Of a stretch of DNA of 64,000 bases, positions 3,068 through 46,323 are shown in pieces. The stretch is from Verrucomicrobiia bacterium. Its GTDB lineage: Bacteria > Verrucomicrobiota > Verrucomicrobiia > Verrucomicrobiales > DEV007. The stretch lies in NCBI GenBank assembly GCA_030427505.1, contig JAUICH010000010.1, positions 62,001 to 126,000 on the forward strand. The letters run 5' to 3'. How positions within the stretch are numbered: position 1 is the stretch's first letter; each line of letters begins with the position of its first letter. The position numbers and the translations under genes were made by a program. The notes beneath the pieces were generated by a model. That model did not search any database, was not told where the DNA came from, and worked only from the letters and a program-made list of their open reading frames with translations.

Positions 3068-6000
3068 TTACGCCGTCGCGGGCTTGCCGCCACCGTCCTC
3101 TTCGGGCGTCGCGTGGCTGATGCCGGAGTCCACCAGGCCCACGGGTTCGATTTCCGTTTTCGTAAGTCCGAGCCCCACGGCCACGCGGTTGGCGGCGGTC
3201 TTCACATCGTGGAGAATGAGGTAAACACTGGGTACCAGGAACAAGGTAATGCCCGTGGCGAACATAATGCCAAAGCCCAGAGACACCGCCATCGGAATCA
3301 GGAACTTCGCCTGGATGTCCGTTTCCAGCAGCATTGGCGTCAGCCCCGCGAAAGTGGTCAGCGAGGTTAGCAGGATGGGCCGGAACCTGGCCGCGCCGGC
3401 TTCCCACGCGGACTCCACCAGACCGAAGCCCTCCGCCCGGTGGCGGTTCACATAGTCCACCAGCACCAGGCTGTCGTTCACCACCACGCCCGCCAGCGCC
3501 ACGATGCCGCACATGGACATGATGCTCAGTTCGAAGCCCATGATCACGTGCCCATAGACCGCGCCGATCAGGCCGAAGGGAATCGCGCACATCACGATCA
3601 ACGGCTGAATGTAGGACTTGAGCGGGACCGCCATCAGCACATACATGCCGATGAGCGCCAGGATGAACTTCGTCATCATTTCGCTCAAGGCTTGGCGCTG
3701 GTCTTTCTGTTCTCCTTCGAAAGAGTAGCGAATGTCGGGATAGCTCTTGCGAAGGTCTTTCAGCGTTCCCGCTTCCAGGCTGGCCACCACTTCGTTGGCG
3801 TTGGCGCCCGATGTGTTGTCGATGTCCGCGGTGATGGTGATGGAACGGCGCCGGTCGGAGCGCTGGATGGTGGAATAGGAACGCCCGAAATCGATCTCGG
3901 CCACTTCAGAGAATGGCACTTCCGCTCCGCCTTGGGTTCGAACCTTGGAGGTCTGGATATCGGAGAGGGAGGCGCGTTCCTCTTTCGGGTAGCGGACAAA
4001 GACCTTCACCTCGTCCCGGCCGCGTTGCAGCCGCTGGATCTCCTCTCCATAGAATCCCTGACGCATCTGCCGGGCCAGGTCCCCCAGGCGCAGCCCCAGG
4101 GCTTCCGCGCTGGGACTGATATTCAGCTTCAATTCGCGTTTTCCCTCGCGGTTGCTGTCGGCAATGTCGATCACGCCTTCAAACTCGCCCAGGGCATTCT
4201 TCACTTCCTGTGCCGCCGCGTCTAGGTCGTCCAGGTTGGGGCCGTTCAGTTGCAGGTCGATCGCGTTGCCGCCTCCCGCGGCCTGAGCCTGGAAGGTCAG
4301 TTCCACCGCGCCAGGAATGTCGCCGGTCAGTTCCCGCCAGCGCGAGGTGATCTGGTCGCCCGTCACGTCCCGGTTGGCGGAGGGCTGTAACTCAATGGTG
4401 ACTTCTCCCAGGCTCACGTCTTTGGGAATACCGCCCGCGTTGAACATACTCACCTGGAACGGCTGCGTGCCCGTGCTCGCCATGATGTGTTTGATGATCG
4501 AATTGCCGTCCTTGTCGGTAAATTCTTCGTTCAGTAGAAGCGCGGCATCTTCCATTTTCTTCACGGCGGCGACCGTGGTCTCATAAGGCACGCCTTTGGG
4601 CATGGTCAGCTTCGCGGATACAATGTCCGCTTCCACATCGGGGAAGAAGCTGAACCGGATCCATCCCAGGCCGACAAACGCGGACGTGGCGAAAAAGACG
4701 CAGATGAACCCGCACAGCACGACCCAGCGGCTGTGAAGCGCCAAGCGCAAGGTGGGGCGGTAGACTTTCTCGATAAAGGTTTCCAGGCCCCGGGAAAACC
4801 GGCGCTGAAATCTCAGGATCGGTCCAGGTTCGTGATCGGGGTCATAACGCTTCAGGCAGGCCAGGTGAGAGGGCAGCACCAGCTTGGACTGCAGCAGGGA
4901 AAAGAACAGGGTGGGGATGACCACCAGCGGAATGTTTGGCCAGATTTTTCCGCTCACGCCGCTGAGTCCCAGCATGGGGGTAAAGGCCATCATAGTGGTC
5001 AGCACGCCAAAGATCACCACCACGCCCACTTCGTGCGTGCCCTTCACTGCCGCTGTTCTCGGGTCCTCGCCCTCGCGCATCCGGCGGTAGACGTTTTCGC
5101 CCACCACGATGGCGTCATCCACCACGATCCCCAGAACCAGGATAAAGGCGAAGAGAGAGATCATGTTAATGGCGATGCCGAGCTGCGGCATCATCCAGAT
5201 GGCGCCCGCGAAGGAGACCGGAATGCCCACCGCGACCAGCAGCGCCAGGCTGGGGCGCAGGAACAGCGCCAGTACCACCGCCACCAGCACCAGACCGAAG
5301 ATGCCGTTTTTCATCAGCAGGTTCATGCGGCCCTCCAGAAAGACGGAATCGTCCTTCCAGATTTCCAGTTTCACGCCGTCCGGCAATAGCCGGGGGGCTT
5401 CTTCATAGACGAACTTCCGCACCAGTTTGGCGATCTTCAGGGTGTCCTGGTTCCCCACGCGGTAGACGTTGATGAGCATGGTGGGACGGTTGTCAAACCG
5501 GGTCGCGATGTCCACGTCCTCAAAGCCGTCCCGGATGACGGAAATGTCCTCCAGCTTCACGACCGAACCGTCTGGCCGCGTCGTCACCGTGATGGGGGCG
5601 AACTCGGCCGCGGTGTAACGGCGGGCCTCCGTGCGGATGAGCACTTCGCCGCCAGAGGTGTCCACCGAGCCGCCAGGCAGATCCAGCGAGGAGTTACGCA
5701 CCGCGTTCGCCACCTGACTGAAGGTCAGCCCATACTGACGCAGGGTGTCCTCCGAGACTTCGATGGAGATCTCGTAGTCTCGCACTCCGGCCAGTTCCGC
5801 CTGGGTGACTTTGACGGGACCTGAATCGACCAGGAGTGACAGCAGAGGCAACTGCGCAAGCGCGTTGTCTGGGTCGAGTTCCTTGGAGGTGAGTTCGTAG
5901 TTTAACAACGAATCCCGGACTTCTTCCGTGAGCTTACGCAGCGTCTTTTCGTCCGTCTCGGCGGAGACGGCAATGCTCATCACCTGATTCTTGATGAGGA

Positions 6001-6391
6001 GCTCCTCCATCACGGGTTCCTCCGCCTCCTCGGCCAGGTTCTGAATGGCGTCGACGCGGGTCTTCACGTCGTCCATCAGGTTGCGGACGTCGTAGCCGCT
6101 GGCCACTTGCACCAACACCACGCCCGTCCCTTCCGCCGAGGTGGAGTTGAGTTCCTCTATTCCATCCAGGTCCTGAATCGCTTCCTCGATGGGGATGACG
6201 ATACCTTTTTCCACCTCCTCTGGGGTCGCATTGGGGTAGGGCACCCGGACGGCGATGGTATCGACATTGGTTTCCGGAAAGATCTCCTTCTTCAGCTTAA
6301 ACCAGGTCGAAAAGCCAAGCAGCAGCACGATCGCCATCAAGAAGTTGGCGGTGACGTGATTCTTGGCGAACCAGTTGATGATACCTTCCAT
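3068..6391 (-). CDS. RND efflux transporter permease (AcrB/MdtB-like)
   Basis: The 1107-residue inner-membrane proton/drug antiporter of a tripartite efflux pump. It has the usual RND plan: a first membrane helix (NHVTANFLMAIVLLLG), a large periplasmic loop, a helix bundle at about 355-560 containing VLGIVVDDAIVVGENVYRR (the TM4 motif with paired Asp used in proton relay), then a second repeat of loop plus helices ending near residue 1060. The extreme C-terminus is hydrophilic. It is the last gene of a four-gene operon (TetR, outer-membrane factor, adaptor, permease), 47 bp after the adaptor, and is closed by the terminator at 3027-3056. Sequence is closer to HAE-type multidrug pumps than to metal CusA; the substrate cannot be read from sequence. 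Confidence 0.93.
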   Translation of the reverse strand: MEGIINWFAKNHVTANFLMAIVLLLGFSTWFKLKKEIFPETNVDTIAVRVPYPNATPEEVEKGIVIPIEEAIQDLDGIEELNSTSAEGTGVVLVQVASGYDVRNLMDDVKTRVDAIQNLAEEAEEPVMEELLIKNQVMSIAVSAETDEKTLRKLTEEVRDSLLNYELTSKELDPDNALAQLPLLSLLVDSGPVKVTQAELAGVRDYEISIEVSEDTLRQYGLTFSQVANAVRNSSLDLPGGSVDTSGGEVLIRTEARRYTAAEFAPITVTTRPDGSVVKLEDISVIRDGFEDVDIATRFDNRPTMLINVYRVGNQDTLKIAKLVRKFVYEEAPRLLPDGVKLEIWKDDSVFLEGRMNLLMKNGIFGLVLVAVVLALFLRPSLALLVAVGIPVSFAGAIWMMPQLGIAINMISLFAFILVLGIVVDDAIVVGENVYRRMREGEDPRTAAVKGTHEVGVVVIFGVLTTMMAFTPMLGLSGVSGKIWPNIPLVVIPTLFFSLLQSKLVLPSHLACLKRYDPDHEPGPILRFQRRFSRGLETFIEKVYRPTLRLALHSRWVVLCGFICVFFATSAFVGLGWIRFSFFPDVEADIVSAKLTMPKGVPYETTVAAVKKMEDAALLLNEEFTDKDGNSIIKHIMASTGTQPFQVSMFNAGGIPKDVSLGEVTIELQPSANRDVTGDQITSRWRELTGDIPGAVELTFQAQAAGGGNAIDLQLNGPNLDDLDAAAQEVKNALGEFEGVIDIADSNREGKRELKLNISPSAEALGLRLGDLARQMRQGFYGEEIQRLQRGRDEVKVFVRYPKEERASLSDIQTSKVRTQGGAEVPFSEVAEIDFGRSYSTIQRSDRRRSITITADIDNTSGANANEVVASLEAGTLKDLRKSYPDIRYSFEGEQKDQRQALSEMMTKFILALIGMYVLMAVPLKSYIQPLIVMCAIPFGLIGAVYGHVIMGFELSIMSMCGIVALAGVVVNDSLVLVDYVNRHRAEGFGLVESAWEAGAARFRPILLTSLTTFAGLTPMLLETDIQAKFLIPMAVSLGFGIMFATGITLFLVPSVYLILHDVKTAANRVAVGLGLTKTEIEPVGLVDSGISHATPEEDGGGKPATA

Positions 6392-6438: not shown

Positions 6439-7662
6439 TCAGGGCTTGGGAGCCGGGTTGGGACGGTCGGTTGAGGAGTCGGTCAGGGCCGGCGCCTTGT
6501 CCTCAGCGTCCGCGTCTTCATTCGCAACGCGGACCTTCATGCCTTCGATGACGTCGGCCAGTTCCGTGATCATGATACGCTCCCCTTCCTTGAGGCCTTC
6601 GGTGACCAGGGCGTCTTCACCGGCGCGGCGGGCCACTTTCACGTCGCGGAAGTGCAGCCGGTTGTCCGGGTCGACGACGACGATGGTGTCCAGGTCGTGA
6701 AACGCGCGGAAGGGCACTTGAAAGACACCGGCCAGGGTCACGCCTTCCACCTCTGCCTGCACGAAGAGTCCAGGCTGAAAGAGCCGCCCGTCAGGCGTCT
6801 GGGGCGCGTCCACTTCCGCCACCAGGTAGATGGAGCGGCTTTCCCGTTCCACTTCTCCCTCGGTCCTCACAATCTCGCCATGCCAACGGAAGGAACCGGG
6901 GCCGATGTTGGCCAGGAGATCGGAACCAGCATTGGGCGCGCCTTCCGGGTCCGTCTTGAGAAAGGAATAGTCCTCCAGCGAGACCGGCAGCCGCACTTCA
7001 TAGGGCCCCAGGGAAAAGAGGCTGGCCACTCGGGCGCCAGGCGAGAGGTATGTGCCCAGCTCAGCCTGGATCTCCCGAATCCGGCACGGATAGGGGGCAC
7101 GGACCGTGGTGCGTTCCAGATCCCGCTCGGCTCGCTCCAGGGCGGACTTAGCGGACTCCACCTTGGCGCGCGCGCTGATCAGCTGGGGTTCGCGCAAGGT
7201 CAGCGGGTTAGGATCTTTGTTGCTGCCCAGGGTCTTCCAGTCGAGCGCGGCTTTTTCAGCGCGGGCTTCTTCCAGATCCAGTTCCAGTTTGGCGTCGGCC
7301 AGCGCTGCGGTCGCCTGGGCGGCGGCGGCTTCGTAGTCCGCCTTGTCCAGTTGGACCAGCATCTCGCCCTCTTTGAATTCGCCTCCGGCGTGAAACTTGG
7401 GAGAGACTTCCGTCACCTTTCCGGACACCTCAGAGGCGAGTTGGGTCACCCGCTTGGCTTCGACCAGTCCTTGAGAGGGCAGTACCACCGGAATGTCCTC
7501 CCGCTTGGCGGTCAGGACTTCGACGGCTGGCAAGACTTGGGTGAGTTCCTTCTTCTCAGCCTCCGGCTTGAACATCACGGCGACGAAGATGACGCCCAGG
7601 GTGATCAGGATGATGCAGACCGCGAAGATGACTTTGATGGCAATTCGAGAGGACGATTTCAT
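6439..7662 (-). CDS. RND pump periplasmic adaptor (membrane fusion protein)
   Basis: 407 residues. One N-terminal membrane helix (about 8-30, IKVIFAVCIILITLGVIF) anchors it to the inner membrane. A lipoyl-like half-domain, an alpha-helical hairpin rich in Ala/Glu/Lys (about 120-185), the second lipoyl half (RAPYPCRIREIQAELGTYLSPG) and beta-barrel and membrane-proximal domains follow. This is the HlyD/AcrA-type fold linking the permease to the outer-membrane channel. Its ATG overlaps the TGA of the preceding outer-membrane gene (ATGA at 7659-7662), indicating translational coupling. The C-terminal tail is acidic and Pro-rich. Confidence 0.92.
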   Translation of the reverse strand: MKSSSRIAIKVIFAVCIILITLGVIFVAVMFKPEAEKKELTQVLPAVEVLTAKREDIPVVLPSQGLVEAKRVTQLASEVSGKVTEVSPKFHAGGEFKEGEMLVQLDKADYEAAAAQATAALADAKLELDLEEARAEKAALDWKTLGSNKDPNPLTLREPQLISARAKVESAKSALERAERDLERTTVRAPYPCRIREIQAELGTYLSPGARVASLFSLGPYEVRLPVSLEDYSFLKTDPEGAPNAGSDLLANIGPGSFRWHGEIVRTEGEVERESRSIYLVAEVDAPQTPDGRLFQPGLFVQAEVEGVTLAGVFQVPFRAFHDLDTIVVVDPDNRLHFRDVKVARRAGEDALVTEGLKEGERIMITELADVIEGMKVRVANEDADAEDKAPALTDSSTDRPNPAPKP

Positions 7663-9185
7663 TTACTGTAGATGACGGTTTCGGTGTCGCGGGCTTTGAA
7701 GTCGCCGCCCAGGGCCAGGTGGAGGTCCACCCGGTTTTCGAGACGAAGGCGGCGGACAGAGATCAGGCTTCTCTCCGCCTGGACGGCCCGTTGTTGTGCA
7801 TTGAGCAGGGTTAGGATGTCGCCGACGCCGCCCACGTAGGCTTCTTCGGCCTCGCTGTAGGCTTCGCGGGCATTGTCTGAGGCGGCGATCAGGGCTTGTT
7901 CGCGCGCGGCGAAGTACTTGTCGGCGGACAGGGCGTTTTCGACTTCACCGAATGCGGACAGGGCCGTTTGCCGGTAGCTCGCGAGCGCCGTTTCGGTTTC
8001 CGCCTCGCGGGCCCGCTGGTTCTGAAGCAGGGCGCCTGCCTGGAAGATGGGTTGGGCGGCCTGTCCGGCCAGGCGCCAGACGGTGAAGTCAGTGTTCAGG
8101 AGTTCGCTGAAGTCTTCGCTGGAAGTCCCATAGCTGCCCGTCAAGGACAGGCGCGGCAAACGGCCCAGCTTGGCCTGCAGGGCACGCCGGTCTGCTTCCG
8201 CCACGCGGCGTTCGGCGGCCCGAATGTCCGGGCGGCGCTCCAACAGGGAGGCGGGCACGCCAGACGGCGGGGTCTTCGGCATGCCCGGAAGGCCGGCCGG
8301 GGCTGAGACTTCCGCGGCGGGATAGCGCCCCAGGAGAATCTCCAACTGGCGGGCGGTTTGCTCGATGAGGTCCTGGCTCTGGGCGACGGCCTCTTCCGCG
8401 TTGGCCACATCCACCATGGCCAGACGGAGCTGCGCGGCGGCGTCGGATTGGTCGTTGGCTACACCAAGCTCAAACTGGTCCCGGATGATGCGCTCCGTGT
8501 TTTTGAAGACTTCCAGCGTGCGTTTGGCCAGGGCGTTTAACTGGCGGGCTTCGATCAGGGCCAGCCAGATCTTGGTGGTCTGAGCCGCGACGGAAAGTTC
8601 CGTGGCCGCGAAGTCCGCGCGGGAGGCTTCCACGTTGGCAATGGCGGCGGACTGTCCGGCCCGCACGCGGCCCCAGATGTCCGCTTCCCAGGTGATGTCC
8701 AGAGACAGGCCAAAGTCATTGCTCAGGCTGGTCAGGACGGTTTCCTGAGGTTGAGACGCGGAAGAAGCCGTCGAACCCCCGCTCCGGCTGCTTCCGCCGC
8801 CGCCAAAGGGAAATCCAATGAAACTGCGCTGAGAGCGGCTACCGCTCAGGTTCAGATCCAACTGAGGATACAGGTCCGCGCCAGCGATGCGGGCATTTGC
8901 TTCGGCCAGCCGGATGCGGGCGGCGGCGGCATCCAGATCGAAATTGTTTTCCACCGCTTCGTTGACCAGGCTGACCAGTTGCCGGTTTCCAAAGGAAGAC
9001 ACCCAGTCTGAGTCCGCGACGGCCTTTTTGATTTCCAGGGAGCCGTCGTCCCGGGCCTTCCAGTTTTCGGGAAGCTCCAGATCCAGCTTGTCCTGCTGTG
9101 ACTTGGGCGAGTTCGCGGCGCAGTGGCACAACAGCGTGCAGGCAGACGCCAGGAGGAGGGTGCGGGAGAGAACAGCGGATACCAT
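7659..9185 (-). CDS. RND efflux outer-membrane channel (TolC/NodT family)
   Basis: 508 residues with an N-terminal export signal (LSRTLLLASACTLL) followed by Cys residues; the site CHCAAN does not match a strict lipobox, so lipidation is uncertain. Two OEP-like repeats are visible. The first holds LVNEAVENNFDLDAAAARIRLAEANARIAGADLYPQ-type sequence and the second RRPDIRAAERRVAEADRRA, both hallmarks of NodT/OprM factors that form a trimeric outer-membrane tunnel. It follows the TetR gene by 19 bp and overlaps the adaptor by four bases. A Ser/Gly-rich insert (about residues 120-140) interrupts the first repeat. Confidence 0.92.
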   Translation of the reverse strand: MVSAVLSRTLLLASACTLLCHCAANSPKSQQDKLDLELPENWKARDDGSLEIKKAVADSDWVSSFGNRQLVSLVNEAVENNFDLDAAAARIRLAEANARIAGADLYPQLDLNLSGSRSQRSFIGFPFGGGGSSRSGGSTASSASQPQETVLTSLSNDFGLSLDITWEADIWGRVRAGQSAAIANVEASRADFAATELSVAAQTTKIWLALIEARQLNALAKRTLEVFKNTERIIRDQFELGVANDQSDAAAQLRLAMVDVANAEEAVAQSQDLIEQTARQLEILLGRYPAAEVSAPAGLPGMPKTPPSGVPASLLERRPDIRAAERRVAEADRRALQAKLGRLPRLSLTGSYGTSSEDFSELLNTDFTVWRLAGQAAQPIFQAGALLQNQRAREAETETALASYRQTALSAFGEVENALSADKYFAAREQALIAASDNAREAYSEAEEAYVGGVGDILTLLNAQQRAVQAERSLISVRRLRLENRVDLHLALGGDFKARDTETVIYSK

Positions 9186-9204: not shown

Positions 9205-9885
9205 TTATTCTGAAAGCAGGCTCGGGGCGGTCATGCCAGCGGCGGAAAAGGCGATCATTTGTTCGAGAATGGCATCGATGTCCTGGGGGTCGACCTTGTC
9301 GCCCGCGAACAGCGTCAGCGTCTCCGCCTGAGTCAGGGCATAGAGCTTGACGCCCACCGTGAAGTGAAACCGCCAATAGATCTCCGCCTCGCTGAGGTGG
9401 GGCAGGGAACGGATGGCGGCGGCGAAAAAGCGGTCCGCCAGCGCTTTGAACGTTTCGTGCTGAGCTTCCGGTGAGAAGCCGCCTTCCTCGCTCATGCAGC
9501 GCCCGGCCAGGCGGAGAAAGACTTGCCGTGAGTGCTCGGACTTCTTCATCTGGGAAAGCACGGGCAAAAACATGCAGCGCAGGACCCGCTCGATCGGGAC
9601 GGGGTCCTCACCACATTCCGCTTCCGCCTCATCCAAAAGCCGGAGCCGTTCTTCATTAATGGGACCTACCATTCGCAGGAAGACCTCGAAGATGAGGGAT
9701 TCTTTGGAGCCGAAGTGGTAGTTGACCGAAGCGAGATTGACTCCGGCGTGGGCCGTGATCTGCCGAAGCGAGACCGCGCTGAAGCCTTGATTGGCAAACA
9801 GCTCCTCCGCCGCGTCCAATATCCGGGAACGGGTTTCCTGCTGCGCGGTGGACGCGTGACTGGGTTCGGAGACGGGCAGAGACAA
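9205..9885 (-). CDS. TetR-family repressor, PsrA-like, of the efflux operon
   Basis: 226 residues. The helix-turn-helix (about 20-65) reads SRILDAAEELFANQGFSAVSL, then HAGVNLASVNYHFGSKESLI. The NLASVNYHFGSK recognition helix and the C-terminal WRFHFTVGVKLYAL segment resemble Pseudomonas PsrA, a fatty-acid-responsive repressor. The start is TTG at 9885: no in-frame ATG exists upstream before a stop at 9925, and none lies shortly downstream. It is the first gene of the pump operon and faces three AAAC-N4-GTTT palindromes at 9937-9974, which match the published PsrA-type consensus GAAAC-N4-GTTTC. Autorepression and control of the pump are therefore inferred. The ligand is unknown; a fatty acid or other amphipathic molecule would fit. 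Confidence 0.88.
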   Translation of the reverse strand: MSLPVSEPSHASTAQQETRSRILDAAEELFANQGFSAVSLRQITAHAGVNLASVNYHFGSKESLIFEVFLRMVGPINEERLRLLDEAEAECGEDPVPIERVLRCMFLPVLSQMKKSEHSRQVFLRLAGRCMSEEGGFSPEAQHETFKALADRFFAAAIRSLPHLSEAEIYWRFHFTVGVKLYALTQAETLTLFAGDKVDPQDIDAILEQMIAFSAAGMTAPSLLSE

Positions 9886-9936
9886 GATCGCGGAAAGTGA
9901 AAGGTAGCAGCCATCCAGATTCCACTAAGGAACCTG

Positions 9937-9974
9937 AAACAATCGTTTCAAACGCATGTTTAAAACAAACGTTT
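9937..9974. promoter_or_regulatory. Three tandem TetR/PsrA-type operators
   Basis: Three copies of AAAC-N4-GTTT lie at 9937-9948 (AAACAATCGTTT), 9950-9961 (AAACGCATGTTT) and 9963-9974 (AAACAAACGTTT), spaced exactly 13 bp start to start. The first extends to TGAAAC/GTTTCA. They sit 52-89 bp upstream of the TetR start and in the divergent control region facing the DNA methyltransferase, so both could be regulated. Confidence 0.75.
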
Positions 9975-10096
9975 TTCGTGTGCAAGCAACTTTTTAGGCA
10001 GTTTGGCGAGAATCATGGTTGGTCGCGGGAGAAGTTGACGGTGTCGTTCTTTTCTCAAACCATTACGGCGTGACGCCAGGGGACGAGACTCAAGAG

Positions 10097-10918
10097 ATGC
10101 ATTTGCCCGAAATGGGATGCGCGACGGAATTTTCACTGCACCACCAGGATTGCCTCGAAGGAATGCGGGCTTTGCCGGAGGAATCCGTGGACTTGGTGGT
10201 GACTTCGCCCCCTTACAATTTGGGCATTTCCTACTCTACCTATCAGGATCGCCGCACCCCGGAGGATTATCTGGGCTGGTGTGTGGCCTGGGCGGGGGAA
10301 GTGAAGCGCCTCCTCAAGCCAGATGGCGCCATGTTTCTAAACGTGGGGGCCTCGCCCAAGAACCCCTGGATGCCGCATGAACTGGTGCTGGCGTTACGGA
10401 ACCTCTACACCCTGCAGAACACCATTCACTGGATCAAATCGATCACCGTGGAGACTCGCGATGGCCGGACGGTGTCCGCGGGACATTTCAAGCCCATCAA
10501 TTCCAAGCGCTACGTCAACGACTGCCATGAGTACGTTTTTCACCTGACCAAGGAGGGGGAGTGCAAGCTGGACCGGAAGGCAGCAGGCGTGCCCTACCAG
10601 GACAAGTCCAACATTGCCCGCTGGGGACACACGGGCGGTGTGGACCGGCGCTGCCGGGGAAACACCTGGTACATTCCCTACGAAACGATCAACTCTCGCG
10701 ACAAGGAGCGGCCTCACCCCGCTACTTTTCCCGTGGCGCTGGCGGAGCGGTGCGTTTTCCTTCATGGTAAGCCACCAGAAAAAACGGTCATGATGGATCC
10801 CTTTCTGGGCATCGGACACGCGGCGGTGGCGGCCCGGAGTCAAGGTGTTGGAAAATTCATCGGTTTCGAAATTGACGAGGATTATCTGGAAGTGGCCCGT
10901 CAGGCGGTGGCGAAGTGA
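10097..10918 (+). CDS. Orphan site-specific DNA methyltransferase (beta class)
   Basis: About 273 residues. Motif IV TSPPYNLGISYSTY comes near the N-terminus, and motif I DPFLGIGHAAVAARSQG near the C-terminus with the following acidic residue in GFEIDEDYLEVA. This order (catalytic motif before the AdoMet site) defines beta-class amino-methyltransferases; S/DPPY enzymes methylate adenine N6 or cytosine N4. A long target-recognition region lies between them. The reading frame extends to a TTG at 10019, but the ATG at 10097 (ATG also at 10112) leaves a more natural N-terminus and room for the promoter. No restriction endonuclease gene is adjacent, so it is an orphan methyltransferase, possibly with an epigenetic or protective role. 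It is divergent from the TetR operon. Confidence 0.88.
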   Translation: MHLPEMGCATEFSLHHQDCLEGMRALPEESVDLVVTSPPYNLGISYSTYQDRRTPEDYLGWCVAWAGEVKRLLKPDGAMFLNVGASPKNPWMPHELVLALRNLYTLQNTIHWIKSITVETRDGRTVSAGHFKPINSKRYVNDCHEYVFHLTKEGECKLDRKAAGVPYQDKSNIARWGHTGGVDRRCRGNTWYIPYETINSRDKERPHPATFPVALAERCVFLHGKPPEKTVMMDPFLGIGHAAVAARSQGVGKFIGFEIDEDYLEVARQAVAK

Positions 10919-46289: not shown

Positions 46290-46323
46290 TTGAAACTATG
46301 GTTTACCCCACTGGTAGTTTCAA
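46290..46323 (-). promoter_or_regulatory. korAB promoter overlapped by an inverted repeat
   Basis: Perfect nine-base arms TTGAAACTA (46290-46298) and TAGTTTCAA (46315-46323) flank 16 bases. On the minus strand they contain TTGAAA (46318-46323) as -35 and CATAGT (46295-46300) as -10, exactly 17 bp apart. The ATG lies about 25 bp further on. A dimeric repressor on this palindrome would cover both promoter elements. Confidence 0.55.

Follow-up and report, generated by a model that had tools for sequence, protein, structure and literature searches.

Three exact copies of a 12-bp palindrome stand head to tail in front of a gene for a PsrA-like TetR repressor in the window (the whole 64-kb stretch of DNA that was analysed). 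This array is very probably an autorepression operator, through which a dimer of the adjacent repressor would control a dedicated RND efflux operon. More surprising than the array itself is a fused form of the repressor that is present in sister lineages.

A scan of the window gave exact matches to AAACNNNNGTTT, of the form AAAC-N4-GTTT, at 9937, 9950 and 9963. The copy closest to tetR occupies 9937-9948 (AAACAATCGTTT) and has in-register counterparts in relatives; the middle copy occupies 9950-9961 (AAACGCATGTTT) and the copy most distant from tetR 9963-9974 (AAACAAACGTTT), none with an assigned strand. The array spans 38 bp and the step from copy to copy is 13 bp both times, just as the original prediction had it; by arithmetic this is about 1.24 helical turns. 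It is located between the start of tetR (minus strand) and a divergent DNA methyltransferase gene.

Elsewhere in the 64-kb window, AAACNNNNGTTT has a single extra match, at 46293, with 0.74 matches expected in all. This lone site (AAACTATGGTTT, 46293-46304) directly precedes a minus-strand 2-oxoacid oxidoreductase-like gene; chance alone would put about one site of this kind in a window of this size. Two or more AAAC-N4-GTTT copies in register occur at one place in the 6.4-Mb genome, and at none for a reversed-pattern control. When a site-and-a-half pattern with one mismatch was sought genome-wide, the count equalled that of the control, and in the same genome no further tandem or 1.5-site match rose above control. 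A genome-wide regulon of the array is thus unsupported.

The repressor gene (9205-9885, minus strand, presumed TTG start) encodes a protein with both TetR_N (59.1 bits) and TetR_C_30 (88.3 bits), above the Pfam gathering scores of 24 and 26.3. Its nearest solved relative by sequence is 2fbq, which is PA3006, the PsrA of Pseudomonas aeruginosa (phmmer E 1.2e-34). The same structure is also top by fold (Foldseek E 1.2e-10) when a confident model of the protein (mean pLDDT 91) is compared. In the recognition-helix region the window protein has AGVNLASVNYHFGSK and PsrA has AGVNLAAVNYHFGSK. The resemblance to PsrA proposed from the sequence is therefore borne out by sequence, fold and a near-identical recognition helix. 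However, its top NCBIfam match, the PsrA equivalog NF053516, scores 146.6 bits against a cut-off of 300, so the protein is called PsrA-like rather than PsrA.

PsrA, an autorepressor, recognises C/GAAACN2-4GTTTG/C, and two of its sites precede psrA in P. fluorescens (PMC13104628, PMC3510223). Sites of this type are present in the window repressor's own promoter, as three AAACN4GTTT cores; the first, when extended (GAAACAATCGTTTC, 9936-9949), fits the full PsrA site GAAAC-N4-GTTTC.

Behind tetR on the minus strand are genes for a NodT-type outer membrane efflux channel with a lipoprotein-like signal (7659-9185; OEP, TIGR01845 above cut-off), a periplasmic adaptor of the RND pump (6439-7662; TIGR01730 above cut-off) and an RND permease of the AcrB/AcrD/AcrF family (3068-6391; PF00873, 572 bits). 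Channel, adaptor and permease in a row, as assigned with Pfam and NCBIfam, make up the tripartite RND efflux operon that had been expected here. As the genome encodes no other TetR_C_30 protein and has no other array, the window repressor and the array would form a switch dedicated to the pump.

Conservation of the site was followed in 80 TetR homologues with 37 to 55% identity. When loci were aligned on their best site, a second copy (≤ 1 mismatch) was found at an offset of -13 in 16 of 81 and +13 in 10 of 81, with 0 to 2 at other offsets. Loss of the spacing in relatives had been named as the result that would count against the original prediction; in a set thinned to < 60% identity, a partner at exactly 13 bp was retained in 15 of the 26 diverged loci with a site at ≤ 1 mismatch, against 0.03 expected from shuffled flanks. 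Spacings of 21, 26 and 30 bp were found in two to three loci each of this set and some homologues have one copy alone; thus, the 13-bp pair is not obligatory in all homologues.

The proposed search before homologous operons gave a site (≤ 1 mismatch) in all 52 pump loci with distinct upstream sequences, a 13-bp pair in 35 and, in 11, a pair spaced differently within the range of 8 to 59 bp. The array had been described as uncommon. This does not hold for 13-bp pairs, which are the norm in pump loci, but it does for three perfect copies, which among the 52 are found in the window alone. Three copies with ≤ 1 mismatch in each are present in L087 and L044, and the closest relatives, L086 and L087, have three in-register units with a degenerate middle copy (AAACGTGTAATT and AAACGTATGATT, respectively). 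In the window's own family most loci have in-register pairs whose N4 letters differ, which points to selection on half-sites rather than recent duplication. Because the 13-bp spacing recurs upstream of related repressor genes across several phyla, it would mark the array as a conserved self-repression switch.

The association also emerged from a scan that made no use of protein homology. Of 289 genomes of the order, 30 contained an exact double site, at one locus apiece; the reversed pattern, used as control, gave 0. A tetR gene adjoins 29 of the 30 places. Taken with the homologues, this co-conservation of AAAC-N4-GTTT with the TetR group supports the direct protein-site link that had been suggested. 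The exception, L163 (1501-1525), adjoins no recognisable tetR, and its neighbours resemble, by eye, a NikR-type regulator and glycogen phosphorylase. At three of the 29 (position 1501 of L181, L182 and L183) the 13-bp double operator accompanies a different TetR subfamily, which has a similar recognition helix (VNVASINYYFGSKEGLY) and weak matches to the RefZ and CecR models; an RND-like gene is alongside the double operator in L182.

Placement relative to the promoter is likewise conserved. A -35-like hexamer, TTGCAC (9980-9985, minus strand), has its TTG starting 11 bp before the first operator copy when read towards tetR. Among 57 loci, 30 have the TTG of such an element 10 or 11 bp ahead of their first copy, by far the dominant distance, in a count that includes a few near-duplicates and two loci (L006 and L089) for which the first copy was chosen wrongly. 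A 17-bp spacer from TTGCAC places the -10 element at TAAACA, over the middle operator copy, although its match to a -10 is poor. A strict sigma-70 scan of the tetR intergenic region called no promoter, so the promoter is deduced from its conserved position. The array would then cover the presumed core promoter, with the most distant copy within the presumed -35/-10 spacer and the others reaching over the -10 and the start region, where repressors that block polymerase usually bind. In P. putida, PsrA occupies its own promoter from -18 to +20 (PMC13104628). In L024 (about 60 bp ahead of the tetR gene) and in similar Rhodocyclaceae loci, the site centres a long near-perfect palindrome whose left arm contains a -10-like TATGATT and whose right arm is its mirror (TTCTTATGATT...AATCATAAGAA).

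From this arrangement we infer how binding and repression might work. One dimer would bind each AAAC-N4-GTTT copy, so that up to three could be bound simultaneously, in fixed 13-bp register across the promoter from which tetR, channel, adaptor and pump are expressed. The first would lie in the spacer that follows the -35, the second on the presumed -10 and the third around the start point; on rotated faces, such dimers might give the graded response first suggested. With ligand absent, bound dimers would exclude RNA polymerase and keep both repressor and pump low. Dimers would come off in response to a hydrophobic ligand, for which a fatty acid or other amphiphile is the likeliest candidate; the operon would then be expressed, and newly made repressor would reset the switch.

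Alternatively, a single dimer may recognise an extended palindrome of about 20 to 28 bp (ATTC-AAAC-N4-GTTT-GAAT), the array being one extended operator and the 13-bp copies its reinforced flanks. Many betaproteobacterial homologues do have one central site with mirrored flanks (for example, TATGATT...AATCATA), the P. putida rpoS site is TTCAAACN4GTTTGAA (PMC13104628), and where sites repeat every 13 bp, the flanks of each fall on the half-sites of its neighbour. Nevertheless, this reading is unlikely: in 35 of 52 pump loci there is a complete second copy at 13 bp, with different N4 spacers, and three full copies over 38 bp exceed the 15 to 17 bp covered by single TetR-family dimers (PMC4150764). 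In addition, gel shifts of Smlt2053, which has two repeats, show an extra complex at higher protein (PMC10304680). Dimers might instead bind as cooperative pairs on nearly opposite faces, on half-sites that belong to neighbouring copies rather than on one copy each. Binding as a dimer of dimers is known for QacR, CgmR, SlmA and CprB, over 22 to 32 bp where given (PMC4150764). This is rather improbable here, as homologues with a single copy exist and, by arithmetic, a 13-bp centre spacing sets neighbours about 86 degrees apart, not opposite. QacR and CprB resemble the proposal for the window in placing more than one TetR-family dimer on an operator region, but their 22- to 32-bp operators for two dimers (PMC4150764) differ from whole palindromes set head to tail every 13 bp.

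It is very unlikely that the array chiefly controls the divergent gene. This encodes a DNA methyltransferase (N6_N4_Mtase; about 10100-10918, plus strand; YhdJ and CcrM models below cut-off), and a homologue with 61 to 71% identity is divergent from tetR in seven relatives (L006, L011, L072, L086, L087, L089 and L111). However, the array is present in many relatives that lack this methyltransferase, and its position with respect to the tetR promoter is conserved. AT-rich intergenic DNA commonly has short palindromes, yet a chance repetition or unrelated short repeat is refuted by the 15 of 26 diverged loci with a partner, as well as by the return of the array, with other letters in the spacers, at further tetR promoters and no control match in 289 genomes.

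The preferred reading, autorepression by a PsrA-like dimer, has close parallels. PsrA of Pseudomonas (PA3006, 2fbq) is like the window repressor in sequence, fold, recognition helix, GAAAC-N4-GTTTC palindrome and an operator in its own promoter; the window repressor differs in that no further array was found outside the local operon and its neighbours are RND rather than beta-oxidation genes. Smlt2053 of Stenotrophomonas maltophilia is a PsrA-like autorepressor with two such inverted repeats upstream, heading its own operon, and long-chain fatty acids reverse its DNA binding; unlike that of the window, its operon encodes beta-oxidation enzymes (PMC10304680). Repressors of the AcrR/TtgR/NalD type share with the window the arrangement of a local TetR repressor adjoining an RND pump operon, but sequence and fold matches to them are far weaker than to PsrA.

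By analogy, a fatty acid or amphiphile is a plausible inducer for the pump operon. An acyl-CoA dehydrogenase gene is downstream of tetR in 50 homologues, mostly betaproteobacterial, and in the case that was checked (L009) it is followed by a thiolase gene. Pump operons follow tetR in Verrucomicrobiota and at single loci in Planctomycetota, Latescibacterota and Acidobacteria. The PsrA and FadP fatty-acid degradation regulons are known in Proteobacteria (PMC5343134). A lipid inducer is reasonable in view of the acyl-CoA dehydrogenase neighbours, these regulons and the release of Smlt2053 by long-chain fatty acids.

In the window and its nearest relatives tetR and the channel are separate genes. 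In many other relatives the tetR frame runs without a stop into a basic linker, a hydrophobic stretch, a lipobox-like cysteine and the outer-membrane channel; in L007 and L040, a single protein has Pfam matches to TetR_N, TetR_C_30 and OEP. Of the 53 distinct pump-type TetR sequences, 27 are fused, and these fall in two clades: one comprising L006 (1862-4093), L007 (5881-8157), L088, L090-L102, L104-L109, L139 and L140, and the other L040, L112 and L135-L138. Parsimony on the tree of the 53 sequences requires two changes, which gives the fusion two origins, compared with at least 13 changes for shuffled labels. A long ORF in L054 was rejected as an additional fusion because its OEP is in a different frame from TetR. 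Seven distinct fused loci (L093, L096, L099, L102, L106, L137 and L140) have no ATG, GTG or TTG between the last TetR codons and the lipoprotein-like signal, which makes separate production of the channel scarcely possible at these loci; a possible internal start is present in others. Fused loci keep the operators and conserve the recognition-helix residues. Structure prediction for the fused protein gave a mean pLDDT of 66, a low confidence, and none of the conclusions draws on it. No report of a TetR-outer-membrane-channel fusion was found in searches of open-access papers, which is weak evidence of novelty.

A broader proposal, given a little less than an even chance, is that selection has maintained the 13-bp register across phyla as a geometry on which PsrA-type dimers can stack, despite neighbours that differ between fatty-acid breakdown and efflux, and that in the two sister clades the repressor forms the cytoplasmic front of a precursor of the outer-membrane channel, in the order TetR, basic linker, lipoprotein signal and channel. 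If so, cleavage by signal peptidase II would leave a membrane-tethered repressor equal in number to exported channels, and channel export could feed back on transcription. If made as predicted, the fused protein would be unusual in holding a soluble repressor within an exported lipoprotein precursor, and this is directly testable.

An operator code, AAAC-N4-GTTT every 13 bp, is tied to a recognisable TetR group over several phyla, and its targets should therefore be predictable from sequence. One fatty-acid-type regulator and its operator appear to be common to beta-oxidation and RND efflux operons. This sharing with beta-oxidation suggests that an uncharacterised group of pumps has a lipid-like inducer or substrate.
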